Positions 14,201 through 29,348 of a stretch of 47,204 nt of DNA are shown piece after piece (within the stretch, counting starts at the first letter, position 1; every line of letters starts with the position of its first letter). This DNA comes from Clostridiaceae bacterium (GTDB lineage: Bacteria > Bacillota > Clostridia > Oscillospirales > Acutalibacteraceae): positions 1 through 47,204 of the forward strand of contig JAEEYU010000057.1 of NCBI GenBank assembly GCA_016288315.1, read 5' to 3'. The position numbers and the translations under genes are program-made. Under the pieces are notes generated by a model. That model saw only the letters and a program-made list of their open reading frames with translations. It searched no databases and was not told where the DNA came from.

Positions 14201-14204
14201 CACA

Positions 14205-14230
14205 GGGCGGTCACGGACCGCCCTTTTTTT
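14205..14230 (+). terminator. Strong terminator of the alpha-galactosidase gene
   Basis: The 8-bp perfect stem GGGCGGTC/GACCGCCC (14205-14212, 14216-14223) is followed by seven T residues. Confidence 0.93.
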
Positions 14231-14249: not shown

Positions 14250-14315
14250 TAACATTGAAAATGTTATTAAAATATTAAAAAAAAGTCTTTAAATATTTTA
14301 TTTATATGTTATAAT
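14250..14315 (+). promoter_or_regulatory. Promoter region of the hydrogenase operon with an inverted repeat
   Basis: A consensus -10 box TATAAT lies at 14310-14315, with only a weak -35 (CTTTAA, 14287-14292). Upstream, TAACATT-GAA-AATGTTA (14250-14266) is a perfect 7-bp inverted repeat. A weak -35 plus an upstream dyad suits an activator or a redox-responsive regulator. It is not a clean match to the Rex consensus as I know it. Confidence 0.5.
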
Positions 14316-14390: not shown

Positions 14391-14885
14391 ATGCTTAAAA
14401 AAATCAGCAATATTCCTTTCTCGGGCACTCCCGAACAGGAAGCGAAACTCAAAAAAATCATCGATGAGAGCAAGCACGACAAGCACCTTCTTATGACCGT
14501 TATGCAGGAGGCGCAGGACATTTACGGTTACCTTCCCTTCGAGGTTCAGGTTATGATAGCCGAGGGTATGGATATCCCGCTTGAGAAAGTTTACGGTGTT
14601 TCCACCTTCTACGCTCAGTTTGCTCTTTCACCCAAGGGTAAATACAATGTTTCGGTCTGCCTCGGCACCGCATGCTATGTCAAGGGCTCCCAGGCTCTCC
14701 TTGACAAAATCTGCGAAGTCCTCGAAATCGGCAACGGCGAATGCACACCCGACGGTAAATTCTCAGTTGAAGAATGCCGCTGCGTAGGCGCCTGCGGTCT
14801 TGCTCCCGTATTTATGGTCAACGACGATGTTTACGGCAGACTTACAGCCGACGATGTCGAGGGCATCCTCGCAAAATACGAATAA
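14391..14885 (+). CDS. hydC: Hydrogenase subunit HydC / NuoE-like [2Fe-2S] protein
   Basis: This 164-residue protein is the NuoE (24-kDa) family subunit found in trimeric NAD-linked hydrogenases. An N-terminal helical region (MTVMQEAQDIYGYLPFEVQ) leads into a thioredoxin-like fold that binds one [2Fe-2S] cluster through C90-x4-C95 (CLGTAC) and C131-x3-C135 (CRCVGACG). It should pass electrons between the NADH/FMN subunit and the hydrogenase catalytic subunit in the cytoplasm. The start at ATG 14391 has CAGGAGGAAAG upstream; the frame extends 10 codons further without support. It leads the ten-gene operon, separated from its catalytic partners HydB and HydA by the regulatory block. Confidence 0.92.
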   Translation: MLKKISNIPFSGTPEQEAKLKKIIDESKHDKHLLMTVMQEAQDIYGYLPFEVQVMIAEGMDIPLEKVYGVSTFYAQFALSPKGKYNVSVCLGTACYVKGSQALLDKICEVLEIGNGECTPDGKFSVEECRCVGACGLAPVFMVNDDVYGRLTADDVEGILAKYE

Positions 14886-14908
14886 TCAACGGCAACCGGA
14901 GAACAGTT

Positions 14909-15256
14909 ATGAAAATTGAAATAATCCGCGACCTGCTCAATGCGGATGTTCTTTGCGGCGAAGACCGTCTTTCAAATGATGTTCTTTCCGCCTGCGGCAG
15001 CGATATGATGAGTGATGTTCTCGCATATGTCAAGAATCAGGCGGTGCTCCTCACCGGACTTGTCAATTCACAGGTCATCAGAACCGCAGCAATGATGGAT
15101 ATGCAGTGCGTGGTTTTTGTCAGGAGCAAAATGCCGTCTGAAGAAATGCTTTGCCTCGCAAAGGAGTGCGGCATAACCGTTATGACATCACCCATGCGTA
15201 TGTATGAAGCCTGCGGCAAGCTTTACTCCGAAGGATTGGGCACCGGTATAGAATAA
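14909..15256 (+). CDS. DRTGG-domain protein 1
   Basis: This 115-residue protein consists of one DRTGG-like alpha/beta module: MKIEIIRDLLNADVLCGEDR, then AYVKNQAVLLTGLVNSQVIR, then a strand-helix ending in VMTSPMRMYEACGKL. DRTGG domains occur next to CBS domains and in phosphotransacetylase-like proteins and are thought to bind ligands or nucleotides; no enzyme activity is known to me. A second copy is encoded at 16963, on the other side of the sensory hydrogenase gene. The ATG at 14909 lies after CCGGAGAACAG. Its stop codon overlaps the ATG of the next gene by one base (TAATG), so translation is coupled. The family call is by recalled resemblance to hydrogenase-linked DRTGG proteins. Confidence 0.75.
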   Translation: MKIEIIRDLLNADVLCGEDRLSNDVLSACGSDMMSDVLAYVKNQAVLLTGLVNSQVIRTAAMMDMQCVVFVRSKMPSEEMLCLAKECGITVMTSPMRMYEACGKLYSEGLGTGIE

Positions 15257-15678
15257 TGGGCGAACCACTCGTTTTTACTTACAATGTTGACGGCGGCGAT
15301 TTCACCTCGGCAGGTCAGGCTTCTGTCATGGTGAAAAAGAACCTGAACCAGATAGGTTTCTCGCCCGAGGTTATCCGCAGGGTTTCTATAGCGATGTATG
15401 AGGGCGAAATCAATATGGTTATTCACGCAGACGGCGGCGTGGCAACCGTCAAGGTGGATGACAACTGTATTGAGATTGTTCTTGCCGATAAAGGTCCCGG
15501 TATTGCCGATGTTGAAAAAGCAATGCAGGAAGGCTTTTCAACAGCGCCCGATGAAGTGCGCGGTCTCGGCTTCGGTGCAGGTATGGGCCTGCCGAATATG
15601 AAGAGATATACCGATGAAATGAGCATCGACTCCACCGTCGGTGTCGGCACAACCATCACAATGAAAGTCAATTATTAA
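15256..15678 (+). CDS. RsbW/anti-sigma-type GHKL ATPase
   Basis: This 140-residue protein is a stand-alone GHKL ATP-binding domain like those of RsbW/RsbT/SpoIIAB. The N-box is EGEINMVIHA (Asn/His), the G1 box is LADKGPGI, and the G2 region is GLGFGAGMGLPNMKRY. There is no phosphorylatable His or sensor domain. Such proteins act as serine kinases or anti-sigma factors and bind partner proteins. In this operon it lies directly before the sensory hydrogenase gene (2 bases apart), so it is a candidate output partner. No sigma factor or STAS antagonist is encoded nearby, so the target is unknown. Confidence 0.85.
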   Translation: MGEPLVFTYNVDGGDFTSAGQASVMVKKNLNQIGFSPEVIRRVSIAMYEGEINMVIHADGGVATVKVDDNCIEIVLADKGPGIADVEKAMQEGFSTAPDEVRGLGFGAGMGLPNMKRYTDEMSIDSTVGVGTTITMKVNY

Positions 15679-15680
15679 CT

Positions 15681-17000
15681 ATGAATTCATATATCCACTC
15701 CGTTTCACTTGACAGTGAAAAATGCAAGGGGTGCACAACCTGTATGAAGCATTGCCCCACAGAGGCAATAAGAGTTTTTCATCAGGTGGCGCACATAAAC
15801 CCCGACAGGTGCATTGACTGCGGCGAATGTATCAGAGTCTGCCCGCACAACGCAAAAAAGGCAAACTACAACAACCTGGAGCAGATAAAGCAGTTCAGAT
15901 TTAAAATTGCTCTCCCGGCTCCCGCTCTGTTTGCCCAGTTTGACGGGCTTGACGATATCGATTACGTTCTGCAGGGGCTCATTGACCTGGGCTTTGACGA
16001 TGTGTTCGAGGTCTCACAGGCGGCTGAATTTGTAACGTCCTATTCCCGTCAGTATCTTAAAACACCCGGCGTATGCAAGCCCGTAATCAGCTCGGCGTGC
16101 CCCGCTGTGGTTCGTCTCATCTGCCTGAGGTTCCCTTATCTTAAAGACAATATTATGCCTCTGCTCCCTCCCGTTGAGGTTGCGGCGGCAATGGCAAAAG
16201 AAAAGGCGGCAAAAGAACACCCCGAATTAAAAGCGGAAGAAATCGGAGTATGTTTTATTACTCCGTGCCCCGCAAAGGTCAGCTATGTTGAAAACGGATT
16301 CGGCGATTACAAGAGCAGAATCGATCTTGTAGTTCCCATAAGCGAGGTCTATTTTAAACTGATTAACGTTATGAACCGCGATGTCAAGCCGGAGATTACA
16401 AGCAAAACCGGTGTCATCGGCATCAGCTGGGCGTCAAGCGGCGGCGAAGCGTCGGGGCTTCTTACCGACAGAATCCTTGCCGCAGACGGCATCAACAATG
16501 TTATTCAGGTTCTCGAAAAGGTGGAGAACGGCAACATCCCGAGCGTTGATTTCATCGAGCTCAACGCCTGCACAGGCGGCTGCGTTGGCGGTGTTCTTAC
16601 AATAGAAAATCCGTTCATAGCCCGCAACCGTCTCCAGACTCTGCGCCGCTACCTTCCCGTTTCGAGAAACTCCCATCAGGGCGATTACATTCCCGAAGAA
16701 AGGTTTTTCAACGAGATGCCCACCTACAAACCCCTGAGCCGTCTGAGCGACAATATAGGCGAATCAATGCGCCTGCTCGCAAAAATCCAGGCAGTGCGCG
16801 AGGACTTACCCGGCATAGACTGCGGTGCCTGCGGTTCGCCGAATTGCAGAGCGTTTGCCGAAGACCTTGTTCTGGGCAAGGCGGATTTAAACGACTGCAT
16901 CATAGGTTACAAAAAACTAATCAAACAATATATTAATTCCAAAGGCAGAGAGGACGACTCCGATGACAGTGAATTCTTTAGCCGAAAAACTGAAACTTGA
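15681..17000 (+). CDS. hydS: Putative sensory [FeFe]-hydrogenase (HydS-like, group C)
   Basis: This 439-residue protein has an N-terminal 2x[4Fe-4S] ferredoxin domain (C15, C18, C21, C25 and C44, C47, C50, C54) and then an H-cluster domain. Motif L1 is SSACPAV (Cys140), L2 is TPCPAK (Cys196) and L3 is NACTGGCVGG (Cys297, Cys301), so all four H-cluster cysteine ligands remain. The proton-transfer cysteine that precedes the L1 ligand in catalytic enzymes is Ala139, the change reported for HydS-type sensory hydrogenases. The C-terminus has a further [4Fe-4S] motif, IDCGACGSPNC (from C381), like PF04060. There is no PAS domain. It is probably a slow enzyme acting as H2 or redox sensor. Its end overlaps the next gene by 38 bases. 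Confidence 0.88.
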   Translation: MNSYIHSVSLDSEKCKGCTTCMKHCPTEAIRVFHQVAHINPDRCIDCGECIRVCPHNAKKANYNNLEQIKQFRFKIALPAPALFAQFDGLDDIDYVLQGLIDLGFDDVFEVSQAAEFVTSYSRQYLKTPGVCKPVISSACPAVVRLICLRFPYLKDNIMPLLPPVEVAAAMAKEKAAKEHPELKAEEIGVCFITPCPAKVSYVENGFGDYKSRIDLVVPISEVYFKLINVMNRDVKPEITSKTGVIGISWASSGGEASGLLTDRILAADGINNVIQVLEKVENGNIPSVDFIELNACTGGCVGGVLTIENPFIARNRLQTLRRYLPVSRNSHQGDYIPEERFFNEMPTYKPLSRLSDNIGESMRLLAKIQAVREDLPGIDCGACGSPNCRAFAEDLVLGKADLNDCIIGYKKLIKQYINSKGREDDSDDSEFFSRKTET

Positions 17001-17289
17001 GCCGGTCTGCTGTCCCGACCCCGAAAAAGAAGTCTGCGGCGTTTATATAGGCGACCTGCTCAGCTGGGTTATGGGCAGGGCAAAGGCAGGCGACGCCTGG
17101 CTGACGATTATGTCAAACGTCAACATAGTCGCCGTGGCAGCCCTCGCCGAAACAGCCCTGATAATTCTCGCCGAAGGCGTAACGGTGGATGAAAAGATTA
17201 CCGAAACCGCACAAGCAAAAGGCGTGAATATATTCACATCCCAAAAACCCGCTTACGAAACGGCGGTTGAGATTTCAAAGCTCATTTGA
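16963..17289 (+). CDS. DRTGG-domain protein 2
   Basis: This 108-residue protein is a clearer DRTGG-family member than the first copy: VCGVYIGDLLSWVMGRAKAG is the well-known block of hydrogenase-linked family members, followed by DAWLTIMSNVNIVAVAALAE and GVNIFTSQKPAYETA. The role is unknown; a ligand- or partner-binding function is inferred. It starts inside the 3' end of the sensory hydrogenase gene in another frame, which indicates tight translational coupling, and the PHP gene starts one base after its stop. Two divergent DRTGG copies in one operon could form a heterodimer. Confidence 0.85.
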   Translation: MTVNSLAEKLKLEPVCCPDPEKEVCGVYIGDLLSWVMGRAKAGDAWLTIMSNVNIVAVAALAETALIILAEGVTVDEKITETAQAKGVNIFTSQKPAYETAVEISKLI

Positions 17290-17290
17290 G

Positions 17291-18028
17291 ATGAGAAAGT
17301 TCTATTACGATTTTCACCTTCACTCCTGCCTGTCGCCCTGCGGCGACAACGATATGACTCCCAACAACATCGCGGGCATGGCAAAACTCAACGGGCTCAA
17401 TATTGTCGCGCTGACCGACCACAACTCTGTGCTCAACACGCCGGCGTTTTTCGAGGCGGCAAAGCGTTATTCGATTGTTCCCGTTGCAGGTATGGAGCTT
17501 ACCACGGCAGAGGATATTCATGTAGTCTGCCTGTTTGAAACTCTCGGGCAGGCGCTCAGCTTCGGCGAAGCGGTAAACAAAAGGCGCACCCTTATAAAAA
17601 ACCGCGTCGAAATATTCGGCGAACAGCTTATTCTCGACGGCGACGATGAAATAAAGGGCAGCGAGCAGTTTCTTCTCTCCAACGCAACTTCAATAACGGT
17701 TGACGAATCCCTCGCCTTTGTTGAAAGCTACGGCGGAATCTGCTACCCCGCGCACGTTGACCGCGAGTCAAACGGCATAATCGCAACTCTCGGCACCTTT
17801 CCCGAAGAACCGCCTTTCCGGTTTGCCGAGTTCAACGATGCCGCCAATATTGAAAAATACCGTGAGAAATATCCCGTTCTCGCAGACAAGCCCGTTCTCG
17901 TCTCCTCCGACGCTCACTACCTCGAAAATATGAGAGAGGCGCAGCACTTCTTCGAACTCGAAGGCGAAAGCGAGCAGGAAATCCGCGCAGACCTATTCAG
18001 AAAACTCAGGAACGGTATAAACAGATGA
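17291..18028 (+). CDS. PHP-domain metal-dependent phosphoesterase
   Basis: This 245-residue protein carries the PHP metal-site motifs in order: DFHLHSCLSPCGD at residues 7-19, ALTDHN, GMELTT, HVVCLFE, YPAHVDR and SSDAHYL. PHP proteins hydrolyse phosphoesters such as histidinol phosphate, nucleotides or DNA ends, using two or three metal ions. In this operon it may act on a nucleotide signal or a phosphorylated partner, but that is inference. I use ATG 17291, since the frame's earlier TTG lies inside the preceding gene and homology starts at MRKFYYDFHLHS. It overlaps the next gene by four bases (ATGA). Confidence 0.87.
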   Translation: MRKFYYDFHLHSCLSPCGDNDMTPNNIAGMAKLNGLNIVALTDHNSVLNTPAFFEAAKRYSIVPVAGMELTTAEDIHVVCLFETLGQALSFGEAVNKRRTLIKNRVEIFGEQLILDGDDEIKGSEQFLLSNATSITVDESLAFVESYGGICYPAHVDRESNGIIATLGTFPEEPPFRFAEFNDAANIEKYREKYPVLADKPVLVSSDAHYLENMREAQHFFELEGESEQEIRADLFRKLRNGINR

Positions 18029-18582
18029 AAGAATTATCCCTGAATATTCTCGATATAGCAGGCAATTCCGTAAAAGCAGGGGCAACCAGGGCAGAGGTTC
18101 TGATAGTCGAAACCGACGACACGCTCTCGCTCATCTTCAAAGACAACGGCTGCGGAATGACGAAGCAGCAGGTCGAAAACGTTACGGACCCTTTCTTTAC
18201 AACCCGCACCACCCGCAATGTCGGGCTCGGAATTCCGTTTCTTAAACTTGCCGCAGAACAGACGGGCGGCAGCTTTTCAATAGAATCGGCAACAAAAGAA
18301 GAAAGCCCCGAAAACCACGGCACGACAACAACGGCAGTGTTCTTTAAAAACAGTATAGATTTCACGCCGCTCGGCGATGTAATCTCAACCGTAACAACCC
18401 TCATCCAGGGCTCGCCGCATATTGACTGGCGTTTCAGCCATACATACGGCGAAAAAGAAGTCTGCATAGACACAGCGGAAATACGTTCGGTTCTGGGCGA
18501 TGACGTTCCGCTCGACAGTTACGAGGTAATTGAATGGATCAAATCTTCTCTTGAAGAAGAATATGATTCATTTTACAAATAA
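18025..18582 (+). CDS. Histidine-kinase-type ATPase domain protein without phospho-acceptor domain
   Basis: This 185-residue GHKL ATPase has an N-box LNILDIAGNSVKAG, G1 box FKDNGCGM, F-box DPFFTTRT, G2 box NVGLGIPFLK and a final GTTTTAVFF. It lacks a DHp domain with a phospho-acceptor His and any sensor region, so it is not a complete two-component kinase. The last 60 residues (GDVISTVTTLIQGSP, SYEVIEWIKSSLEEEY) are a family-specific extension. It is the second ATP-binding regulator in this operon, beside the RsbW-like one. It could signal by protein contact or phosphorylate an unknown partner. Confidence 0.85.
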   Translation: MKELSLNILDIAGNSVKAGATRAEVLIVETDDTLSLIFKDNGCGMTKQQVENVTDPFFTTRTTRNVGLGIPFLKLAAEQTGGSFSIESATKEESPENHGTTTTAVFFKNSIDFTPLGDVISTVTTLIQGSPHIDWRFSHTYGEKEVCIDTAEIRSVLGDDVPLDSYEVIEWIKSSLEEEYDSFYK

Positions 18583-18615
18583 GTTTATAAAATTTCACAG
18601 AAGGGAAAAAGAAAT

Positions 18616-18984
18616 ATGAAGTCATTGGCTGAACTCCAGGCAATCAAAGACAAAATGAAGGACAAAGTCGTCCTTCGCGAAGGCACGGGCGAAATCCGTG
18701 TTGTTGTAGGTATGGCAACCTGCGGTATCGCTGCAGGCGCACGCCCCGTTCTCAACGCATTTGTTGAAGGCGTCAACAAAGAAAACCTCTCCGACAAGGT
18801 TACGGTTTCACAGACCGGCTGCATCGGCATCTGCCAGTATGAGCCCGTGGTTGAGATTTTTGAGGCAGGCAAAGAAAAGGTCACCTACGTCAAAATGAAC
18901 GCCGAGAAGGCGGCACAGGTAATCGAAAGCCATCTCAAAAACGGCAAGGTTATTGAGAAATATACCATAGGCGCAAACAGCTAA
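18616..18984 (+). CDS. Small thioredoxin-like [2Fe-2S] protein of the hydrogenase operon
   Basis: This 122-residue protein is a thioredoxin-like ferredoxin related to the N-terminus of HydB and the C-terminal half of NuoE. Cysteine sites are MATCGIAAGARPV and TGCIGICQYEPV (C-x3-C). Only one Cys is visible in the first motif, as in other members with TCGIAAGA, so cluster ligation may use three or four Cys from elsewhere. It is expected to carry electrons for the hydrogenase complex. It follows the ATPase gene by 33 bases, with GAAGGGAAAAAG as ribosome binding site, and precedes hydB by 26 bases. Confidence 0.85.
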   Translation: MKSLAELQAIKDKMKDKVVLREGTGEIRVVVGMATCGIAAGARPVLNAFVEGVNKENLSDKVTVSQTGCIGICQYEPVVEIFEAGKEKVTYVKMNAEKAAQVIESHLKNGKVIEKYTIGANS

Positions 18985-19010
18985 GTTAATTTTACAGGGA
19001 GGAAAATATT

Positions 19011-20819
19011 ATGATTCGTTCGCAGGTTCTTATCTGCGGTGGCACGGGATGCACTTCATCAGGCAGCAAAGTGCTTATGTCCGCGTTCGCAGATGAAATC
19101 GAAAAACAGGGACTCTCCGATGAAATCAAAATCGTCCAGACCGGTTGTTTCGGTCTGTGCGCACTGGGCCCCGTAGTTATCGTTTACCCCGACGGCACAT
19201 TCTACAGCCGTGTTGAAGAAAAGGATGTTGCCGAAATCGTTGAGGAGCACCTTCTCAAAGGCAGAGTTGTCGAAAGACTCGTTTATAACGATGTTGACGA
19301 TGCCAAAAAAGAAGAGATTGCCGGCTCCGTCAATGTTTCGCTCAACGACACAAAGTTTTATAAGGCACAGCAGAGAGTTGCTCTTCGCAACTGCGGTGTT
19401 ATCGACCCCGAAAATATTGACGAATACATTGCCATGGACGGCTATGCCGCATTAGGCAAGGTTCTTACCGAAATGACTCCCGAAGACGTCATCAAGTGCG
19501 TTCTTGACTCAGGTCTTCGCGGCAGAGGCGGCGGCGGATTCCCCACCGGCAGAAAGTGGAGCTTCACTGCAGCTCAGCCCAAGGGTCAGAAATATGTTGT
19601 CTGCAACGCCGACGAAGGCGACCCCGGCGCTTTTATGGACAGATCCGTTCTCGAAGGCGACCCCCATTGCGTAGTTGAGGCAATGACAATCTGCGGTTAC
19701 GCAACGGGCGCTTCAGAAGGTTACATCTATGTTCGCGCTGAGTATCCCATCGCCGTCAAGAGGTTAAAAATAGCCATCGATCAGGCAAAGGAATACGGTC
19801 TTTTAGGCAAAAATATATTTGATTCGGGCTTTGATTTCGACCTTCACATACGTCTTGGCGCAGGCGCATTCGTCTGCGGTGAAGAAACCGCACTTATGAC
19901 TTCAATCGAAGGCAACCGCGGCGAGCCCCGTCCCCGTCCTCCCTATCCCGCAATAAAAGGCCTTTTCGGCAAACCCACAACAGAGAACAACGTTGAAACA
20001 TTCGCAAACATCCCCCAGATTATTCTCAAGGGCGCAGAATGGTTCGCTTCAATGGGCACCGAAAAATCAAAGGGCACAAAAGTATTTGCGCTCGGCGGCA
20101 AAATTAACAACACAGGTCTTGTCGAAATCCCGATGGGCACAACCCTTCGCGAGATTATATATGACATCGGCGGCGGCATCCCCAACGGCAAAAAGTTCAA
20201 GGCCGCACAGACCGGCGGTCCCTCCGGCGGATGCATCCCCGCAAGTCTTATTGACACCGAAATCGACTATGACAACCTCACCAGCATTGGCTGTATGATG
20301 GGCTCGGGCGGTCTTATCGTTATGGATGAAGACACCTGTATGGTCGATATTGCAAAATTCTTCCTCAACTTCACCGTTGATGAATCCTGCGGTAAGTGCT
20401 CACCCTGCCGTATCGGCACCATGAGAATGAAAGAGATTCTCGAAAAGATTACCTCCGGTCAAGGCACGCTTGAAGATATCGACAAGCTCGAAGAACTCGC
20501 CGCCTACATCAAGGCAAATTCACTCTGCGGTCTCGGTCAGACAGCTCCCAACCCGGTTCTTGCAACTCTTCGCTTCTTCCGCGACGAATATATCGCCCAC
20601 GTTGTTGACAAGAAATGCCCCGCAGGTGTCTGCAAGGCGCTTCTCACCTACAAGATTGACCCCGACAAGTGCAAGGGCTGCACGCTTTGCGCACGCAACT
20701 GCCCGGTCGGCGCAATCTCAGGCAAGGTCAAAGAAGCACACACAATCGACACAACCAAGTGCATCAAGTGCGGCGTTTGTATGGATAACTGCAAGTTCGA
20801 CGCAATCAGCAGATCATAA
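19011..20819 (+). CDS. hydB: Hydrogenase subunit HydB / NuoF-like NADH-FMN protein
   Basis: This 602-residue flavoprotein has four parts. Residues 1-110 form a [2Fe-2S] thioredoxin-like domain (CGGTGCTSSGS, TGCFGLC). The NuoF core follows, with the NADH/FMN loop GLRGRGGGGFPTGRKW at about 168-183, NADEGDPGAFMDR and CGEETALMTSIEGNRG. Then comes the NuoF [4Fe-4S] site ESCGKCSPCRIGT near 459-471. The last part is a 2x[4Fe-4S] ferredoxin (CKGCTLCARNCPVGAI, CIKCGVCMDNCKFDAI). It oxidises or reduces NAD(H) in the cytoplasm and, with HydA and HydC, forms an NADH- and ferredoxin-linked hydrogenase that is usually electron-bifurcating. Bifurcation is inferred from family architecture. The start follows GGGAGGAAAAT. 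Confidence 0.95.
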   Translation: MIRSQVLICGGTGCTSSGSKVLMSAFADEIEKQGLSDEIKIVQTGCFGLCALGPVVIVYPDGTFYSRVEEKDVAEIVEEHLLKGRVVERLVYNDVDDAKKEEIAGSVNVSLNDTKFYKAQQRVALRNCGVIDPENIDEYIAMDGYAALGKVLTEMTPEDVIKCVLDSGLRGRGGGGFPTGRKWSFTAAQPKGQKYVVCNADEGDPGAFMDRSVLEGDPHCVVEAMTICGYATGASEGYIYVRAEYPIAVKRLKIAIDQAKEYGLLGKNIFDSGFDFDLHIRLGAGAFVCGEETALMTSIEGNRGEPRPRPPYPAIKGLFGKPTTENNVETFANIPQIILKGAEWFASMGTEKSKGTKVFALGGKINNTGLVEIPMGTTLREIIYDIGGGIPNGKKFKAAQTGGPSGGCIPASLIDTEIDYDNLTSIGCMMGSGGLIVMDEDTCMVDIAKFFLNFTVDESCGKCSPCRIGTMRMKEILEKITSGQGTLEDIDKLEELAAYIKANSLCGLGQTAPNPVLATLRFFRDEYIAHVVDKKCPAGVCKALLTYKIDPDKCKGCTLCARNCPVGAISGKVKEAHTIDTTKCIKCGVCMDNCKFDAISRS

Positions 20820-20837
20820 GGAAGGAGGAAGACTGAA

Positions 20838-22583
20838 ATGGATAATATGATTAACATTAAAATCAACAACACTCCGTTGAGCGTTCCCGACGGAATATCA
20901 ATTCTCGAGGCGGCAAGATATGCAGGCATCGAAATCCCCACTCTCTGCTTCCTCAAAGAAATCAACGAAATCGGCGCATGCCGTCTTTGCATGGTAGAAG
21001 TCAAAGGCGCACGTTCGCTCGTCACCGCCTGCGTTTACCCCGTAAGCGAAGGTATGGAGATTTTCACAAACACCGAAAAGGTCAGAACAAGCCGTAAGCA
21101 TACGCTTGAGCTTATTCTTTCCACCCATAACAAGTCCTGTCTCACCTGCCTTCGCAGCGGCAACTGTGAACTCCAGAAGCTCTGCAAAGAGTTCGGTGTT
21201 AAGGATGCCGATTATTTCGCAGGCAAAATGCCGGAGTTTGAGTTCGACGATTCCGCCGCTCATATGATAAGAGACAACTCAAAGTGCATTCTCTGCCGCC
21301 GCTGCGTAGCCGCCTGCCAGATGCAGGATGTCTCCGTCATCGGCGCAAACGCCAGGGGATTTGACACTCACATCAGCTCCGCATTTGACAAGGACCTTGC
21401 AAATGTTTCGTGCATCTCCTGCGGTCAGTGCATTGTCAACTGCCCGACAGGCGCCATAGTTGAAAAGGATGACAGCGAAAAGGTTTTCGCCGCCATCAAC
21501 GACCCCGAAAAATACGTTATCGCCCAGACCGCTCCTTCAATCCGTGTTACTCTCGGTGAAGCGTTCGGTATGCATATCGGCACAAACGTTCAGGGCAAAA
21601 TGGTTGCCGCTCTCAGAAGACTCGGCTTTGACAAGGTGTTCGACACCGACTTCGCAGCCGACCTTACAATAGTTGAAGAGGCAACGGAACTCCTTGAAAG
21701 AGTTAAAAACGGCGGCGTTCTGCCTATGATTACATCCTGCTCGCCCGGTTGGATAAAATACTGCGAGCACTATTATCCCGAGCAGATTCCGCACCTCTCA
21801 ACCTGCAAATCTCCTCAGCAGATGTTCGGCGCAACTCTCAAAACCTGGTATGCCCAGAAGATGAACATCGACCCCAAAAACATCTTCGTAGTAGGTATTA
21901 TGCCCTGCACAGCCAAGAAGTTTGAAACTCAGCGTGCAGACCAGGCAGCTTCGGGCTACCCCGATGTTGACGTTGCCCTTACAACAAGAGAGCTTGCAAG
22001 AATGATTGAGTCCGCAGGTCTCTACTTCCCCAAACTTCCCGATGAAGAGTTTGACAGCCCCCTCGGCGAGAGCACTGGCGCAGCCGTCATCTTCGGCGCA
22101 ACAGGCGGCGTTATGGAAGCGGCACTTCGCACGGCGGTTGAAACACTCACCGGCGAAGAACTCAAAGAGCTTGACTTTGTTGATGTCCGCGGCACCAAGG
22201 GCATCAAAGAGGCATCCTATACAGTCAACGGTATGGAAATCAAAGTCTGCGCAGCAAGCGGCACCGCAAACGCAAAGAAAGTTATGGAAGATGTCAAAAA
22301 CGGCACCTCTCCTTACACCTTCATTGAGATTATGGGTTGCCCCGGCGGCTGCGTAAACGGCGGCGGTCAGCCCGTTCAGCCCGCAGTTGTCCGCAACTTT
22401 GTTGACCTCAAAGGTCAGCGTGCGGCAGCTCTTTACGAGGCAGACAGAAACATGCCCATCAGAAAGTCACATGAGAATCCCGCCATCAAGAGAGTATATG
22501 ACGAATACTTCGTTTCCTACGGCAGCCACATTGCCCACGAGGTTCTTCATACCTCTTATGAGCCCAAACCCAAGTATAAGTAA
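20838..22583 (+). CDS. hydA: [FeFe]-hydrogenase catalytic subunit HydA (trimeric type)
   Basis: This 581-residue catalytic subunit begins with a NuoG-like [2Fe-2S] domain (CRLCMVEVKGA). The His-Cys [4Fe-4S] site (HNKSCLTCLRSGNC) and a 2x[4Fe-4S] ferredoxin (CILCRRCVAAC, CISCGQCIVNCPTGAI) follow. The H-cluster domain has L1 ITSCSPGW at 298-305, L2 MPCTAKKFE from 355 and L3 EIMGCPGGCVNGGGQP from 497. The C-terminal small-subunit region contains NMPIRKSHENPAIKRVYDEYF-like sequence. It reduces protons with electrons from NADH and ferredoxin via HydBC. L1 reads TSCSPGW instead of TSCCPGW, a variant I recall in other trimeric clostridial enzymes. Maturases HydEFG are not in the window. A terminator follows. 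Confidence 0.96.
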   Translation: MDNMINIKINNTPLSVPDGISILEAARYAGIEIPTLCFLKEINEIGACRLCMVEVKGARSLVTACVYPVSEGMEIFTNTEKVRTSRKHTLELILSTHNKSCLTCLRSGNCELQKLCKEFGVKDADYFAGKMPEFEFDDSAAHMIRDNSKCILCRRCVAACQMQDVSVIGANARGFDTHISSAFDKDLANVSCISCGQCIVNCPTGAIVEKDDSEKVFAAINDPEKYVIAQTAPSIRVTLGEAFGMHIGTNVQGKMVAALRRLGFDKVFDTDFAADLTIVEEATELLERVKNGGVLPMITSCSPGWIKYCEHYYPEQIPHLSTCKSPQQMFGATLKTWYAQKMNIDPKNIFVVGIMPCTAKKFETQRADQAASGYPDVDVALTTRELARMIESAGLYFPKLPDEEFDSPLGESTGAAVIFGATGGVMEAALRTAVETLTGEELKELDFVDVRGTKGIKEASYTVNGMEIKVCAASGTANAKKVMEDVKNGTSPYTFIEIMGCPGGCVNGGGQPVQPAVVRNFVDLKGQRAAALYEADRNMPIRKSHENPAIKRVYDEYFVSYGSHIAHEVLHTSYEPKPKYK

Positions 22584-22652: not shown

Positions 22653-23321
22653 ATGAATCTCGTTAAAAAATGCCTTGCAGAATTTATCGGCACATTCACC
22701 CTTGTGTTTGTCGCCTGCGGCGTAGCCGCAAAGGTCGGCTGTGACTCTGCAAACGGAGCCGGTTACCTTATCACCGCGCTCGCATTCGGCCTTGTAATTG
22801 TTGCAATGGCTTACTCAATCGGCAACGTTTCGGGCTGCCACATAAACCCCGCCGTTTCAATAGCAATGCTTGTCAGCGGCAAAATGAAATTTGTCGATTT
22901 CATTGCTTATGTTGTCTCCCAGTTCGCAGGTGCCATTGCAGGCGCAGCTCTGCTTATCCCCTTTGTAGGCAAAGAGAGCGGCCTCGGCACAAACGCTCTG
23001 TTTGACGGCAGCATCGGTCTTTCAATAGTTATTGAGATTGTTCTCACATTCATCTTCGTCATCGCAATTCTCGGCGTTACCTCAAAGGTTGAAAACGGTG
23101 CGGTAGCAGGTCTTGTAATCGGGCTTTCATTAACCCTTGTTCACCTTCTCGGAATCGCCTTCACAGGCACATCCGTAAACCCTGCAAGAAGCTTCGGCCC
23201 CGCACTTTTCGTCGGCGGAGATGCTCTTGCAAATGTATGGGTATTCATCGTTGCTCCCCTCATCGGCGGAGTTCTTGCCGCTGTTTGCTATAAAATCCTC
23301 GACGGCAAAAAAGCGGAATAA
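22653..23321 (+). CDS. Aquaporin Z-like water channel (MIP family)
   Basis: This 222-residue protein has six hydrophobic segments and both half-helix NPA motifs, GCHINPAVS and SVNPARSFGP. The helix-5 His (LTLVHLLGIAFTGTS) and the Arg after the second NPA match the narrow aromatic/Arg filter of water-selective AqpZ rather than a glycerol facilitator. The ATG at 22653 has AAGGAGG at the correct distance; the frame opens 11 codons earlier with no support. It sits just behind the hydrogenase operon, perhaps by chance. A very strong bidirectional terminator separates it from the glycogen operon transcribed toward it. Confidence 0.92.
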   Translation: MNLVKKCLAEFIGTFTLVFVACGVAAKVGCDSANGAGYLITALAFGLVIVAMAYSIGNVSGCHINPAVSIAMLVSGKMKFVDFIAYVVSQFAGAIAGAALLIPFVGKESGLGTNALFDGSIGLSIVIEIVLTFIFVIAILGVTSKVENGAVAGLVIGLSLTLVHLLGIAFTGTSVNPARSFGPALFVGGDALANVWVFIVAPLIGGVLAAVCYKILDGKKAE

Positions 23322-23335
23322 AATAACACAAAAAA

Positions 23336-23375
23336 CAAAAACAGGCGCTTTGCATTTGCAAAGCGCCTGTTTTTA
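23336..23375. terminator. Bidirectional terminator between aquaporin and glycogen operon
   Basis: The perfect 13-bp stem ACAGGCGCTTTGC/GCAAAGCGCCTGT (23341-23353, 23358-23370) has a 4-base loop and is flanked by five A and five T residues. It serves both converging transcripts and overlaps the last codons of the GH13 gene on the minus strand. Confidence 0.95.
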
Positions 23376-25301
23376 TCTGAAGTTTTCTGCCGTTATCTCA
23401 TAGTCGTCGGGCAGTTTTATGTAAGCCGCAGTCATCGGTTCAAGTTCAATCTCCGTCAACCCGTTTTCACCGCTTATCAGCTCATCAAACTCCTGCCCGA
23501 AATCAAGCGGAAGAACGCGCTCGGAGCGGTTAATTATAACAAGAAGCTTCTGTCTGCCCTTGCCGAAGGGAGTCCGTTCAAAAACAAACAGTTCTTCACG
23601 GCATAAGATGTTTTTGAAAACGCCGCCGTTTAAGAGCGGTTCTTTTTTTCGTATTTCGCCGATTGTTCTGTAATAATCCAGCAAATCGTTTTCAATATTG
23701 TTCCAGGGGAACGGCCTGCGGCAGAACGGGTCCCGGTATCCCTCCAGCCCCGCTTCATCTCCGTAGAAAACGCAGGGCACACCGGGAATTGCCGCCGTAA
23801 GGGCGTATGCAAGCTTCAGACAGCGCAGAGCGTCTTTACGCTGGAACACCGACATCTTAAGCGTCGAAAGCTCCTCATTTGTCATTTCTCCCTCTTCACG
23901 CCCGCCGAGAACTGTAAGAATTCTCTGGGTGTCGTGCGTGCCGAGAAAGTTCATCATACAGTCGCTCGACTGCTTCGGGCAGCGTCTGTAAAGCCCGCTC
24001 GTGACTGCCTCAAGCTTTTCGCTGTTTCCGTTTCTGATGTAGTCAATCACGGCATCCCTGAGCGGGTAGTTCATAACCGAGTCAAGTTCTTTTCCCCTCA
24101 GATACGGTCTTCTTTTTTCGTATGAAATCTTGTTCGTCGCATCTTCCCAGACTTCGCCTATCACAGGCGCATCCGGGTTGATTTTTTTAACCGTTTTGCG
24201 AAGATTCATCAAAAAAATGTCGCTCAGTTCATCCGCAACGTCAAGCCGCCATCCGCCTGCTCCGAGCTTCATCCATTTAGGAATAACTTTGCCGAAAATA
24301 AAATCCATATATGACTTGCTGTCGCTTTTGACTCTCGGCAGAATGTCAACGCCCCACCAGCATTCATATTCATCGGGATAGTTGCTGAAAGAATACCAGT
24401 CATAATACGGCGATTGCGGTGAGTTGTATGCACCCTTGCCCTTGTAGTTGCCCTCGCGGTTAAAATAAACGCTGTCGGAGCCCGTGTGGTTGAAAACTCC
24501 GTCGAGAATAACCTTTATTCCGTATTTGTCCGCTTCTTTGAAAAGAGCGGCGAGCGCTTCGTCTCCGCCGAACATACTGTCAACAGCGAGGTAATCGCCC
24601 GTGTCGTATTTGTGGTTTGATGCGGCTTCAAAAACAGGGGAGAGGTAGATTGTTTTTGTGCCTAGCGAAGCAATGTAATCCAGCTTTTCAATAACTCCCC
24701 AAAGGTCGCCCCCGAAAAACATATTGTTTTTTAGAGGTGCGCCGGGGCAGGGTGCGTATTGCGGAACACCGTTGTCCCAGTCGGGGTTAATAAACGCATC
24801 GCCTCGCACCCTGCATTTTCCGCTTTTATAAAACCTGTCAACAAAAATGTGGTAGATTATACCCTCTTTAAAAAAGCCGGAGGTCTGATAACCTTCGTCA
24901 AACAGCAGCAGCTGCCGGTCTCCCGCCTCGGAGCAGTCCTCAAGAACCGTCGGCTTTTCACCGCCGATAAAAACCTCTTTTTCAGCGCCGGATACCTTGT
25001 ATCTGTAATAAAAAAGTCCCTTTGCCGGGTTGCCGTCCGTAAGAGCTTCAAGCCGTATATCGGCAGAGTAAACATCTCTTCCTTCGTCAATTCCCGACCA
25101 TTCAAGGGGGATGTATCTCAGCACGTCATCGGGGAAATCGAGCGAGTCGGCATAAATCTGCATTTCGGCATAGTATGTGCCGAACGAGCGGGGAACCTTT
25201 ATTTCAAGGCGCAAAGTGTCGCTTCCCGGGAAAGCCCCGAAAAGCGACATATCACGCTTGTAAAATTTGCTGTGTTTGTGCTCGGTTATCTGAAAAGCCA
25301 T
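23373..25301 (-). CDS. GH13 alpha-glycosidase (neopullulanase/cyclomaltodextrinase/amylase type)
   Basis: This 642-residue protein has an N-terminal beta-sandwich domain of about 130 residues, then an alpha-amylase barrel with the four conserved regions. These are I DGVFNH, II GGWRLDVADE (catalytic nucleophile Asp), III IGEVWED (acid/base Glu) and IV FLGTHDT. The entry IIYHIFVDRFYKSG and the PVFEAASNHKYDTGDY block match neopullulanase/alpha-glycosidase subfamilies. There is no signal peptide, so it works in the cytoplasm, probably trimming or debranching glycogen or imported maltodextrins with GlgP. It is last in the glycogen operon; its ATG overlaps the glgP stop codon by one base. Confidence 0.88.
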   Translation of the reverse strand: MAFQITEHKHSKFYKRDMSLFGAFPGSDTLRLEIKVPRSFGTYYAEMQIYADSLDFPDDVLRYIPLEWSGIDEGRDVYSADIRLEALTDGNPAKGLFYYRYKVSGAEKEVFIGGEKPTVLEDCSEAGDRQLLLFDEGYQTSGFFKEGIIYHIFVDRFYKSGKCRVRGDAFINPDWDNGVPQYAPCPGAPLKNNMFFGGDLWGVIEKLDYIASLGTKTIYLSPVFEAASNHKYDTGDYLAVDSMFGGDEALAALFKEADKYGIKVILDGVFNHTGSDSVYFNREGNYKGKGAYNSPQSPYYDWYSFSNYPDEYECWWGVDILPRVKSDSKSYMDFIFGKVIPKWMKLGAGGWRLDVADELSDIFLMNLRKTVKKINPDAPVIGEVWEDATNKISYEKRRPYLRGKELDSVMNYPLRDAVIDYIRNGNSEKLEAVTSGLYRRCPKQSSDCMMNFLGTHDTQRILTVLGGREEGEMTNEELSTLKMSVFQRKDALRCLKLAYALTAAIPGVPCVFYGDEAGLEGYRDPFCRRPFPWNNIENDLLDYYRTIGEIRKKEPLLNGGVFKNILCREELFVFERTPFGKGRQKLLVIINRSERVLPLDFGQEFDELISGENGLTEIELEPMTAAYIKLPDDYEITAENFR

Positions 25302-27748
25302 TATTTAATCTCACTTATGTGCCAGATGTTGCGCGCATATTCGTGTATGCTGCGGTCAGATGAGAAGAAGCCCGCACCCGCAATGTTCGAAAGCGATTTC
25401 TTCGTCCACTCGTCGCGGTCCTTGTATTCGCCCATAACAGTTTTGTATGTGTTGATGTATGACTCATAGTCGGCAAGGCACATATACGGGTCCGAAATGC
25501 CGTGACCGTGAACAAAATAGTTGAACAGCGGTGTAAAGTCGTTGCCTGCGAAGCTTCCGTTCAATCTGTTTACTGCGTCGCGCAGGTCGTCGTTTGTCAT
25601 GTAGTAGTCAATCGACCTGTAGCCCTGCTTCCAGATTTCGTCAACCTCGTTTGCGGTAAGACCGAAGATGAAGATGTTTTCGTCACCCACTGCCTCTTTC
25701 ATCTCAACATTAGCGCCGTCAAGCGTGCCGAGCGTAAGTGCGCCGTTAATCATAAACTTCATACAGCCCGTGCCGCTCGCCTCTTTGCCCGCAAGCGAAA
25801 TCTGCTCGCTGATATCCGAGGCGGGCATAAGTATTTCAGCCGTGCTGACGTTGTAATCTTCAACATAAACAACCTTGAGTATCTTGCTGACAACAGGGTC
25901 GTTCTCAATCTCTTTGCCTACGCTCCAGATAAGGCGGATAATATCCTTTGCAAGGTAATAGCCGGGAGCCGCCTTGCCGCCGAAAATAAAGGTCGTGGGC
26001 GTTACGGGAGCGTTGGGGTTTGCCTTTAAAATATTGTAAAGGGTGATTATTTTAAGCACGTTGAGAAGTTGACGCTTGTATTCGTGCATGCGCTTTACCT
26101 GAACGTCAAAAACGGAGTGCGTGTCAAGACGGACACCCGATTGCTCAAAATACTTCTCGGCAAATCTCTCTTTGTTCTCGTGCTTGATTCTGCGAAGCTC
26201 CGCTATTACGGAGGCGTCGTCCCTGTATTTGAGGAATTCCGAAAGCTGAAGAGAATCCTTGCGGTAGCCCGTGCCGATGCAGTCGTCAAGCAGTTTTGCA
26301 AGCTGCGGGTTTGAGTAGCACAGCCAGCGTCTGTGGGCAATGCCGTTTGTAACGTTCGTGAACTTTTCGGGCATCGCCTTGTAGTAGTCGTGAAAGACGG
26401 TCTGCTTGAGAATTTCGGAGTGCAGGGCGGAAACGCCGTTTACCGTGTGCGACGCCGCAACACTGAGGTTAGCCATCCTTATCTGGTTATATGCGACAAC
26501 AGCCATATTGCTGATTCTGTCCCAGTCTCCGGGATACATATTCCACAGATTTTCGCAAAGGCGGCGGTTGATTTCGCAGACTATCATGTGTATTCTCGGC
26601 AGCTGCAGTTTGAAAAGGTTTTCGTTCCAGGTCTCAAGCGCTTCGGGAAGAACAGTGTGGTTAGTGTATGAAACAACCTTCGTTACAATGTTCCACGCAT
26701 CGTCCCATGAGTATGAGTAAACGTCAAGCAGTACCCTCATAAGTTCGGGAATAACAAGGGCGGGGTGCGTGTCGTTTATATGTATTGCAACCTTCTCAGC
26801 AAAATTGTTGAGTGTGCCGTAGGCGGCAAGATGGTCGCGTATAATGCTCTGCAGAGAAGCCGATACAAGAAAATACTGCTGTGTAAGGCGCAGAAGCTTG
26901 CCCTCGTCGTGGTCGTCAGAGGGGTAAAGAACCTTCGAGATAACCTCGGCGTTGCTTGTCTCCTCAATCGCCTTTATGTATTCGCCCTGCGAGAAAAGAC
27001 TCATGTTGAAGTTGGTTGTGTCAACCGCCTTCCACAGGCGCAGAACGTTTACCGCTTTTGAATCGGCGCCGGAAATCATAATGTCATACGGAACGGCGCG
27101 AACCGTGCGGAAGTTTTCGCAGGTAACCGTGCATTTGCCGTTCTCCCATGTTTCGTTGATGTCGCCGCCCAGCGTTATGTCAAACGCCTTGTCGGGGCGC
27201 AGCACAAGCCAGGAGTCAGCACCGCCCATCCAGTTGTCGGGCAGTTCAACCTGGTTGCCGTCAATGATTTTCTGCTTGAAAAGTCCGTATTCGTAGCAGA
27301 TTGAAAAACCGGTCGCGGGGTATTCAAGAGTAGTCAGCGAGTCCATAAAGCAGGCGGCAAGTCTGCCAAGACCGCCGTTGCCCAGACCCGGGTTCGGCTC
27401 CATATCGCAGAGCTTGTTTATATCAAAGCCCCATTCCTTGAGAATTTCGGTGTATTCCTTCATTACGCCGATATTCATAAGGTTGTTTCTCAGCGATGGA
27501 CCGATAAGGAATTCCATGCAGAGGTAATAAACTCTTTTTGCCTGCTGTTTCTTGATTTTGTCGCGGTAAACGGCTCGTTTTTCCGCGAGTATATCTTTAA
27601 CGCTTAAAAGAGTTGCGCGGTAAATCTGGTCGTAGGTCGCCTCGTCATAAGCAATGCCGTAGTATCTCGACAGCTTCGACATCAGCGATTTGCGTATTTC
27701 TTCTTTTGTCTTTTTGTCAGTTGCCTGTTTTGCCGTGTTTTTTGCCAT
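25301..27748 (-). CDS. glgP: Glycogen/starch phosphorylase
   Basis: This 815-residue GT35 enzyme releases glucose-1-phosphate from alpha-1,4-glucan ends using phosphate and pyridoxal phosphate. The PLP-binding lysine is about residue 664 in GTGCMKFMINGALTLGTLDG. Other family blocks are EPNPGLGNGGLGRLAACFMD near the N-terminus, HINDTHPALVIPELMR, VTNGIAHRRWL and VQVKRMHEYKRQLLN. Length is normal for bacterial GlgP. It lies 19 bases after glgA and overlaps the GH13 gene, so synthesis and breakdown genes are on one transcript. The N-terminal 15 residues are Lys-rich. The assignment is firm. Confidence 0.96.
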   Translation of the reverse strand: MAKNTAKQATDKKTKEEIRKSLMSKLSRYYGIAYDEATYDQIYRATLLSVKDILAEKRAVYRDKIKKQQAKRVYYLCMEFLIGPSLRNNLMNIGVMKEYTEILKEWGFDINKLCDMEPNPGLGNGGLGRLAACFMDSLTTLEYPATGFSICYEYGLFKQKIIDGNQVELPDNWMGGADSWLVLRPDKAFDITLGGDINETWENGKCTVTCENFRTVRAVPYDIMISGADSKAVNVLRLWKAVDTTNFNMSLFSQGEYIKAIEETSNAEVISKVLYPSDDHDEGKLLRLTQQYFLVSASLQSIIRDHLAAYGTLNNFAEKVAIHINDTHPALVIPELMRVLLDVYSYSWDDAWNIVTKVVSYTNHTVLPEALETWNENLFKLQLPRIHMIVCEINRRLCENLWNMYPGDWDRISNMAVVAYNQIRMANLSVAASHTVNGVSALHSEILKQTVFHDYYKAMPEKFTNVTNGIAHRRWLCYSNPQLAKLLDDCIGTGYRKDSLQLSEFLKYRDDASVIAELRRIKHENKERFAEKYFEQSGVRLDTHSVFDVQVKRMHEYKRQLLNVLKIITLYNILKANPNAPVTPTTFIFGGKAAPGYYLAKDIIRLIWSVGKEIENDPVVSKILKVVYVEDYNVSTAEILMPASDISEQISLAGKEASGTGCMKFMINGALTLGTLDGANVEMKEAVGDENIFIFGLTANEVDEIWKQGYRSIDYYMTNDDLRDAVNRLNGSFAGNDFTPLFNYFVHGHGISDPYMCLADYESYINTYKTVMGEYKDRDEWTKKSLSNIAGAGFFSSDRSIHEYARNIWHISEIK

Positions 27749-27767
27749 ACTTTTTTAACCTCGTGTT

Positions 27768-29204: not shown

Positions 29205-29310
29205 AATCCTTTTCCTTTCTTTCGGGCATCGGCGTAAAACCGCGCCCTCTGAAAATATAAAACAACGCTTTTTTTCAAAACGCTCTTTTATATCTTCCGC
29301 CTCAGCGGCA

Positions 29311-29334
29311 GCCTCTCCGGAAAACCGGAGAGGC
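29311..29334 (-). other. Perfect hairpin between glgD and glgA
   Basis: A 10-bp perfect stem GCCTCTCCGG/CCGGAGAGGC with a 4-base loop (TTTT in the transcript) lies in the 144-base gap after glgD. No U-tract follows it on the minus strand, so it is not a standard terminator. A role in mRNA processing, stability or partial attenuation between the operon halves is possible. Confidence 0.6.
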
Positions 29335-29348
29335 ATATCCGCAAAAAG

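Follow-up and report, generated by a model that had tools for sequence, protein, structure and literature searches.

A conserved DRTGG-kinase-PHP gene module around a putatively sensory group D [FeFe]-hydrogenase in the bifurcating hydrogenase operon of a Clostridiaceae bacterium

Putatively H2-sensing [FeFe]-hydrogenases encoded beside catalytic hydrogenase genes are known from group C (M2f), with HydS of Thermotoga maritima and Ruminococcus albus and the HfsB-HfsC pair of Thermoanaerobacterium as examples, and an output through protein phosphorylation or dephosphorylation has been proposed for them in the available parts of the literature (PMC10055695, PMC11837493, PMC6776011, PMC5037454). 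Group D (M2e) is represented by TamHydS of Thermoanaerobacter mathranii, for which the available parts of PMC6984386, PMC10407848 and PMC13104023 name no signalling partner; the terms operon, gene cluster, kinase, DRTGG and PHP are absent from PMC13104023, as are operon, kinase, phosphatase, genomic context and gene cluster from PMC10407848. Here, we analyze a group D-type hydrogenase gene, hydS, and the genes surrounding it at positions 14391-22583 of the 47,204-nucleotide contig JAEEYU010000057.1 (this whole stretch is referred to as the window) from a Clostridiaceae bacterium (Acutalibacteraceae; assembly GCA_016288315.1, 74 contigs, 2.15 Mb, 77.7% complete). Like the group C systems, the locus places a putative sensor beside the genes of a catalytic hydrogenase; unlike them, which contain a PAS domain or come with a histidine kinase, a chemotaxis protein or a Ser/Thr phosphatase, the block in the window has none of these.

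Parts of this arrangement are already in print. PMC3608648, citing Calusinska et al., places a hydrogenase of group D-like architecture together with a histidine kinase upstream of the bifurcating hydrogenase genes in every Thermoanaerobacter strain studied there, and the hyd operon of Acetobacterium woodii comprises HydC, HydE, HydD, HydB and HydA1, with HydE given as a 'sensory transduction histidine kinase' (PMC10472528). As in A. woodii, HydE and HydD genes lie between hydC and hydB in the window, and it is by this operon position, not by sequence comparison, that we use the two names; in contrast to the A. woodii designation, the HydE-like protein of the window has no HisKA domain. The available parts of PMC10472528 and PMC3608648 name no RsbW-like kinase, DRTGG or PHP protein for the A. 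woodii operon or the Thermoanaerobacter A1 cluster. Searching the open-licence literature for DRTGG together with hydrogenase, by title or start of the abstract, we found no description of the DRTGG-kinase-PHP module or account of its parts, in agreement with the initial annotation of this DNA, which had called the signalling mechanism undescribed. A paper on the Moorella hyd cluster reportedly lists some of these neighbor genes.

The ten open reading frames (ORFs) from hydC through hydA all lie on the forward strand (Table 1), and the ORF and Pfam scan of the window places seven genes between hydC and the hydB/hydA pair, as initially annotated: those for a first DRTGG protein (DRTGG1), an RsbW/SpoIIAB-like kinase, HydS, a second DRTGG protein (DRTGG2), a PHP-family phosphoesterase, the HydE-like GHKL ATPase and the HydD-like protein. 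The DRTGG domains score 28.9 and 29.8 bits against a cut-off of 25.2. Overlaps of 1-38 bases had been annotated between several of these genes; those between DRTGG1 and the kinase (1 base), HydS and DRTGG2 (38 bases) and PHP and the ATPase (4 bases) stand, while a 23-base overlap between DRTGG2 and PHP hinges on a TTG start, where homologues favor the ATG at 17291 and hence a gap of 1 base. HydA, which scores above the NCBIfam cut-off for group A6, is the sole PF02906 match in the source genome besides HydS, which leaves HydABC as the single [FeFe]-hydrogenase on which HydS could act, within the limit set by genome completeness. In the ten operon proteins the Pfam scan detected no sigma factor, STAS, receiver or DNA-binding domain, again as annotated. 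PF06971 (Rex) has no match in the 77.7% complete source genome. Since neither HisKA nor Response_reg matched any of them, including the kinase and the HydE-like ATPase, we rejected a two-component system.

Six of these genes, encoding DRTGG1, the kinase, HydS, DRTGG2, PHP and the HydE-like ATPase, form a real module. Among the loci of the 80 best HydS relatives, which by title come mostly from gut or rumen Clostridia and in some cases from Coriobacteria, the ten-gene order was unbroken in all 80 (56 complete, 24 lacking only genes beyond a contig end), which excludes a chance arrangement; the DRTGG1/kinase overlap recurs in 72 and the HydS/DRTGG2 overlap in 64 of them. A profile search of 319 evenly drawn Bacillota genomes (the phylum set) found HydS in 125, taking as the family limit the drop in scores from 197 to 161 bits that separates HydS from other [FeFe]-hydrogenases (five matches above 197 bits, in genomes G063, G056, G095, G234 and G001, hold one internal stop). 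The kinase family is present in 132 genomes (lowest score 128 bits), the HydE-like ATPase in 132 and PHP in 122. HydS and the kinase occur together in 124 genomes, HydS alone in 1, the kinase alone in 8 and neither in 186; the corresponding numbers are 119, 6, 13 and 181 for HydS and the HydE-like ATPase, and 117, 8, 5 and, by subtraction, 189 for HydS and PHP, with Fisher values that are descriptive and overstate independence because the genomes are related. In the single HydS-only genome (G166), one HydS gene lies 81 bases from the end of a contig piece (L170) and a second copy is of a kinase-less type (L163). The conserved neighborhood anticipated in the initial annotation is thus borne out by both synteny and co-occurrence, and the linkage of the module genes is strong at the level of sequence.

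To describe the surroundings of the module we used 130 regions around HydS matches, leaving out that of G001 and a second fragment in G153 and including L212 (161 bits, not group D), partial matches and second copies. The common order is DRTGG1, kinase, HydS, DRTGG2, PHP, HydC, HydE, HydD, HydB, HydA, of which the window, with hydC first, is a variant. Within a same-strand interval reaching from 6 kb upstream to 11 kb downstream of the HydS start, with a fused ORF given one label and some misses due to contig ends, the kinase was found in 119 loci, DRTGG2 in 109, HydE in 105, DRTGG1 and PHP in 104 each, HydC in 95, HydB in 94, HydD in 90, RnfC in 22 and CheW in 2. The enzyme itself varies. An H-domain HydA lies on the same strand in 73 of the 130 loci, 18 of which have rnf genes downstream as well, and on the opposite strand in one (L216); its place is taken by a formate-dehydrogenase-type gene in 14 loci (8 same strand, 6 opposite), and L123 holds both. 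In 15 loci, the HydA-profile match covers only the N-terminal third of the ORF; a molybdopterin oxidoreductase domain comes next and then a stop, which is TGA in 14 of 14 among the matches listed, with an in-frame H-x-x-T-V-A-G-L(A) stretch after it. From this motif we take these ORFs to be selenocysteine formate dehydrogenases on HydB/HydC-type subunits (loci L124, L172, L175-L177, L179, L180, L189, L193, L196, L197, L200, L203, L211 and L123). In L191, L199 and L201 the module runs directly into rnf (rnfCDGEAB-like) genes, L198 has rnf downstream and no labeled HydA, and in the HydS-less L247 the genes for DRTGG1, a kinase with CBS domains and a HydD-like protein stand directly upstream of rnf. 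The circuit, initially annotated as one of a hydrogenase, does therefore lie mostly beside HydABC, but its scope extends to formate-dehydrogenase-type molybdopterin enzymes and Rnf, and to CBS-kinases in loci without HydS.

The module genes are also joined with one another. Single-ORF fusions in the 130 loci link DRTGG1 to the kinase (8), PHP to HydE (6), HydS to DRTGG2 (2), the kinase to HydS (1, L202) and HydE to HydD (1, L233), which gives two chains, DRTGG1=kinase=HydS=DRTGG2 and PHP=HydE=HydD; the two fusions seen once could be assembly errors. In family f83 the module is split into a kinase-HydS part (L121, L122, L133, L228) and a DRTGG1-DRTGG2-PHP-HydE part (L255, L257, L259, L261), the latter flanked in L255 by a folC-like gene on one side and by maf, radC and mreB on the other. 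Elsewhere the genes decay jointly: in the one-contig genome G037 (L254), HydS and PHP are fragmented and the kinase is missing, with DRTGG1, DRTGG2, HydE, HydC, HydD, HydB and HydA intact; G132 has lost HydS, the kinase and PHP and kept DRTGG2, HydE, HydD and HydABC; and G005 keeps DRTGG2 and HydE beside a formate-dehydrogenase-type gene, together with a PHP remnant. The HydE-like ATPase is retained with the enzyme genes where the sensor part is lost (L253, L254, L256).

The sensor seems exchangeable, in that CBS domains on the kinase may replace HydS. Such domains were found on 7 of 209 kinase ORFs, five of which, each with an N-terminal CBS pair, come from HydS-less loci (G090, two loci of G117, G150 and the second locus of G304), and that of G090 stands in an otherwise complete hydrogenase operon (L245). 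The other two come from loci with a HydS gene (L199 and L225, the latter with a kinase ORF split by a DDE transposase gene). In a kinase tree of 139 rows and 137 columns, at least 6 changes are needed for HydS presence and 4 for CBS; for HydS, however, only 2 are forced by the starred branches, which leaves the number of sensor swaps uncertain.

HydS (439 amino acids) consists of N-terminal 4Fe-4S sites, an H-domain and a C-terminal cluster site, and shares with TamHydS, as described in the available parts of PMC6984386, PMC10407848 and PMC13104023, the domain layout, the C-terminal Cx2Cx4Cx16C motif (C381, C384, C389 and C406) and an alanine in place of the proton-transfer cysteine. All four H-cluster cysteines (C140, C196, C297 and C301) are present, and they are kept in 130, 129, 128 and 128 of 130 aligned HydS rows, the remainder being gaps. 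A PAS domain, the mark of group C, was not detected in HydS by the Pfam scan. Transferring the TamHydS positions by constant local offsets, not by direct alignment, we found that E256, E293, S253, D269 and A139 of HydS correspond to Glu252, Glu289, Ser249, Asp265 and Ala137 of the alternative proton path; D378, C379, E392, D393, D403, C404, R30 and R42 of TamHydS are likewise matched, with R31, E394 and D395 of HydS at the conserved charged positions Arg30, Glu392 and Asp393. The conserved Arg32, in contrast, is missing, as the same offset places it on Phe33. We class HydS as a group D (M2e) putatively sensory [FeFe]-hydrogenase, which presumably senses H2.

The kinase matches TIGR01925 with 63 bits (2.7e-17; equivalog cut-off 135), its four sequence matches in the PDB are all anti-sigma F factors, and Foldseek matched a homologue to SpoIIAB (1til, TMt 0.84). 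Glu49 and Asn53 are kept in 99% of 121 rows of the phylum set (here and for DRTGG1/2, PHP and HydE, residues were counted over rows above a score cut). Invariant residues were also seen in DRTGG1 (Ser36 and Thr50, 107 of 107 rows) and DRTGG2 (Asp31, Ser34, Thr48 and Asn54, 112 of 112 rows). At the column of the invariant serine, the 17 canonical DRTGG domains taken from these genomes all lack a serine, one of them (L271) being aligned in the wrong frame; the other 16 show the G(D/N)R motif, which is missing from the module proteins and replaced in the window by TGL (DRTGG1) and TIM (DRTGG2). Being invariant in the module and absent from the canonical rows, this serine is a candidate phospho-acceptor. 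The fold is that of DRTGG domains, with a match of a DRTGG1 homologue to 2ioj (TMt 0.80) and one to the fragment 3l2b of a CBS-DRTGG pyrophosphatase. The module thus resembles that regulated pyrophosphatase in its DRTGG fold and in the CBS domains on some relatives' kinases, and differs from it in the loss of G(D/N)R and in the invariant serine. With the SpoIIAB/RsbW partner switch, which uses a PP2C phosphatase, it shares the kinase fold, the conserved Glu and Asn and small acceptor-type proteins encoded beside the kinase; in the window, however, DRTGG proteins stand for STAS proteins and a PHP enzyme for the phosphatase, and there is no sigma factor.

The remaining proteins keep their active-site residues as well. 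PHP retains its metal ligands (H17, H19, D51, H52, E77, H85, H163, D215 and H217) in 95-100% of 109 rows, and the HydE-like ATPase keeps D10 and N14 in 108 of 108. The HydD-like protein has three conserved cysteines (C36, C69 and C73; n=71, also n=100). The initial annotation had counted it among the regulators as a small 2Fe-2S protein; with three cysteines and its HydD-like character it is an enzyme accessory rather than a regulator, and we rejected it as a member of the circuit.

Membership, co-occurrence, the fusions, the conserved catalytic residues and the change of enzyme are read from the sequences themselves, and from them we infer a phosphorylation of DRTGG by the kinase, a substrate for PHP and an output as follows. 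H2 at the H-cluster, or the redox state reported there, would alter HydS, which would contact the kinase and set its activity, a part that CBS domains on the kinase would play in some genomes. The kinase would phosphorylate the invariant serine of DRTGG1 and/or DRTGG2, proteins that would hold the role of the STAS antagonists in RsbW systems, and PHP might undo this phosphorylation or hydrolyze a linked phospho-compound. HydE, which occurs as a fusion with PHP in some genomes and with HydD in one, could carry the resulting state to the enzyme together with HydD. Given this link of HydE to the enzyme, seen in the PHP-HydE and HydE-HydD fusions, the output would most likely be a post-translational gating of HydABC, and elsewhere of the formate-dehydrogenase-type enzyme or Rnf, rather than transcription. 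That the genes constitute a dedicated signaling module for a ferredoxin/NADH electron-disposal enzyme is, in our judgment, very probable. Such a module combined with a phospho-relay to the enzyme is the best explanation as a whole, with a chance that we put slightly below even. The full phospho-switch with post-translational output is more doubtful. Equally tentative is the broader picture of an undescribed relay of anaerobic Bacillota and Coriobacteria, in which a SpoIIAB-like kinase would act post-translationally through DRTGG instead of STAS substrates, with interchangeable sensors (H2 being read by the group D hydrogenase and adenylates by CBS pairs) and interchangeable targets (bifurcating hydrogenase, HydB/HydC-based formate dehydrogenase and Rnf). 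From the initially annotated circuit of a sensor, ATPases and a phosphoesterase, the dedicated unit is upheld by synteny, co-occurrence, fusions and joint decay; the seventh gene, the restriction to hydrogenase and the confident interfaces are not.

Several observations weigh against the relay. Four of the eight kinase-only genomes (G009, G036, G159 and G306) have neither HydS nor CBS in the locus, so CBS is not the general replacement of HydS; in another of the eight, G236, the contig begins 118 bases from the kinase, on the flank that HydS would occupy. There are HydS copies accompanied only by one DRTGG, HydD, HydC, HydB and HydA, with no kinase, PHP or HydE (L162, L163, L164, L167 and L171), and in L185 HydS stands with none of the other nine families. 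The HydE-containing half of the f83 module has no adjoining hydrogenase in L255 and L259, and no target gene was seen in 38 of the 130 loci, part of which are short contigs. Moreover, the invariant DRTGG serine could serve ligand binding instead of phosphorylation. Rex-like genes near the module in 28 of 130 loci, response-regulator-like genes in 8 of 130, and the OmpR-type response regulator, large histidine kinase and CheW of L121 leave room for a transcriptional output. The confident interfaces that the initial annotation had named as possible support were not obtained either when AlphaFold2 was run on natural fusions as substitutes for complexes. For DRTGG1-kinase, the fusion of L235 (269 amino acids; alignment of 8 fusions, 45 of 67 DRTGG1 rows and 45 of 107 kinase rows) modeled well (pLDDT 87.5) but reached a moderate pTM of 0.72, which is suggestive, and this model gave the matches to SpoIIAB and 2ioj; the PHP-HydE fusion of L176 (424 amino acids; 6 fusions, 45 of 100 PHP rows and 45 of 99 HydE rows) gave a poor pTM of 0.56 (pLDDT 78.8) and no interface. 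Mean-field direct coupling analysis (154-198 paired loci, effective number 62-128, 21-pair scan) was not decisive, with a top DRTGG1-kinase coupling of 9.6 standard deviations against 9.3 for the control pair HydS-HydC. The fused pairs DRTGG1-kinase and PHP-HydE ranked second and third, but with HydD-HydC in first place and the control at so high a value, we rejected the coupling scan as pairing evidence.

The room left for transcription could be filled by a partner switch based on binding of the RsbW-like protein to an unlinked sigma factor or regulator, with DRTGG1 and DRTGG2 as antagonists and with hydrogenase expression altered by H2. The anti-sigma F factors among the kinase matches and the agreeing fold search fit such a switch, as do the two STAS domains that the source genome encodes on other contigs, the Rex-like and response-regulator-like genes just mentioned and the strong decrease of the R. 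albus group C sensory-hydrogenase gene cluster in co-culture, reported in the available part of PMC6776011. We nevertheless consider it unlikely: across the 130 loci no sigma factor, STAS or DNA-binding gene is a constant neighbor of the module, the fusions lead to the enzyme side by way of HydE and HydD, and the target enzyme varies. About as improbable is a reading without any phosphoprotein, in which DRTGG (and CBS) would bind an adenine nucleotide or dinucleotide, PHP would hydrolyze it and the ATPases would be nucleotide switches. The fold match to the pyrophosphatase fragment 3l2b, the CBS pair on some kinases and the matches of the PHP part of the PHP-HydE model to EndoQ and RNase AM, PHP enzymes acting on nucleic acids or nucleotides, speak for it (the ATPase part matched MutL and WalK), but both module DRTGG proteins have lost G(D/N)R and carry an invariant Ser/Thr pair instead, and the kinase keeps the Glu and Asn of a serine kinase.

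HydS and the ATPases might instead build, repair or shield the enzyme complex without any signaling, which would suit the description of HydD, in the available part of the review PMC6288185, as an additional A. woodii enzyme subunit and the persistence of the HydE-like and HydD genes with the enzyme genes after loss of the rest. HydABC is, however, kept without HydS, kinase and PHP in G037 and G132, and the module also occurs beside non-hydrogenase enzymes or away from any, which makes a pure assembly or protection function improbable. Least of all do we believe that an old operon is simply inherited as a whole, with no functional link between its genes. The relatedness of the genomes works in its favor, yet HydS lacks the kinase in only 1 of 125 genomes, and the co-occurrence outlasts changes of order, the f83 split, genes in divergent orientation, fusions, a swapped enzyme and joint decay.

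Table 1. Features of the hydrogenase operon and its upstream region, in window coordinates.
Feature	Position	Strand	Basis
Terminator-like hairpin, 3' of the upstream melibiase-type gene	14204..14224	+	pattern match only; melibiase by Pfam
Promoter-like site TTTAAA-16-TATAAT, TG before second hexamer; candidate operon promoter	14288..14315	+	pattern match only
hydC, thioredoxin-like [2Fe-2S] subunit	14391..14885	+	PF01257 6e-50; AGGAGG-like site upstream of start
DRTGG1, divergent DRTGG domain protein, candidate phospho-acceptor	14909..15256	+	PF07085; residues numbered from 14906
RsbW/SpoIIAB-like GHKL serine kinase candidate (Glu49, Asn53)	15256..15678	+	TIGR01925, HATPase_c_2
HydS, group D (M2e) putatively sensory [FeFe]-hydrogenase, no PAS	15681..17000	+	PF02906 (Fe_hyd_lg_C), PF04060 (FeS), 4Fe-4S domains
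DRTGG2, second divergent DRTGG domain protein	16963..17289	+	PF07085
PHP-family phosphoesterase	17291..18028	+	PF02811 1.2e-10; residues numbered from 17267
GHKL ATPase (HATP2), HydE of A. woodii by operon position; Asp10/Asn14	18025..18582	+	PF02518 (HATPase_c)
HydD-like small thioredoxin-fold protein, three conserved Cys	18616..18984	+	PF01257 partial (2Fe-2S_thioredx)
hydB, NADH/FMN subunit of electron-bifurcating hydrogenase	19011..20819	+	PF01512, PF10589
hydA, catalytic [FeFe]-hydrogenase subunit	20838..22583	+	NF040763 894 bits, cut-off 765

The promoter-like pattern occurs at 13 sites in the region, against 7.5 expected. Downstream of hydA (window 22653-29336), a MIP-family channel gene on the forward strand is followed by alpha-amylase, glycogen/starch phosphorylase and starch synthase-type genes on the minus strand. 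Among the relatives, a [FeFe]-hydrogenase-MCP fusion adjoins the kinase-HydS pair in two loci (L121:6994-8934 (-) and L228:7129-9042 (-)), and HydB is fused to C-terminal Fer4_20 and Pyr_redox_2 domains in proteins of about 1000 amino acids (L118:13090-16100 (+) and L256:10240-13272 (+)); the same fusion is suggested for L125, L127, L129 and L137 by a distance of about 3 kb between the HydB and HydA starts. Downstream of HydA in L225, a single ORF (17111-19672 (+)), cut by the locus end, joins a [FeFe]-hydrogenase domain, a C-terminal FeS site, a PAS domain and the AAA domain of a sigma-54 activator, a combination not among the C1-C3 types of HydDB in its available part. A SPOR-domain gene lies near the module on the same strand in 27 of 130 loci (e.g. 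L191:11392-11910 (-)) and a folC-like gene in 31.

Group D sensory hydrogenases have so far been studied for their chemistry, and the module provides a shortlist of partners, ranked by natural fusions, together with a testable phosphosite. The formate-dehydrogenase-type genes beside the module would imply a common regulator of H2 and formate metabolism. If the proposed relay is true, a single pathway would couple the main ferredoxin/NADH enzymes of anaerobic fermenters to the H2 level and perhaps to the state of the adenylates, which would bear on H2 and methane in the rumen, on gut fermentation and on the production of H2 or ethanol.

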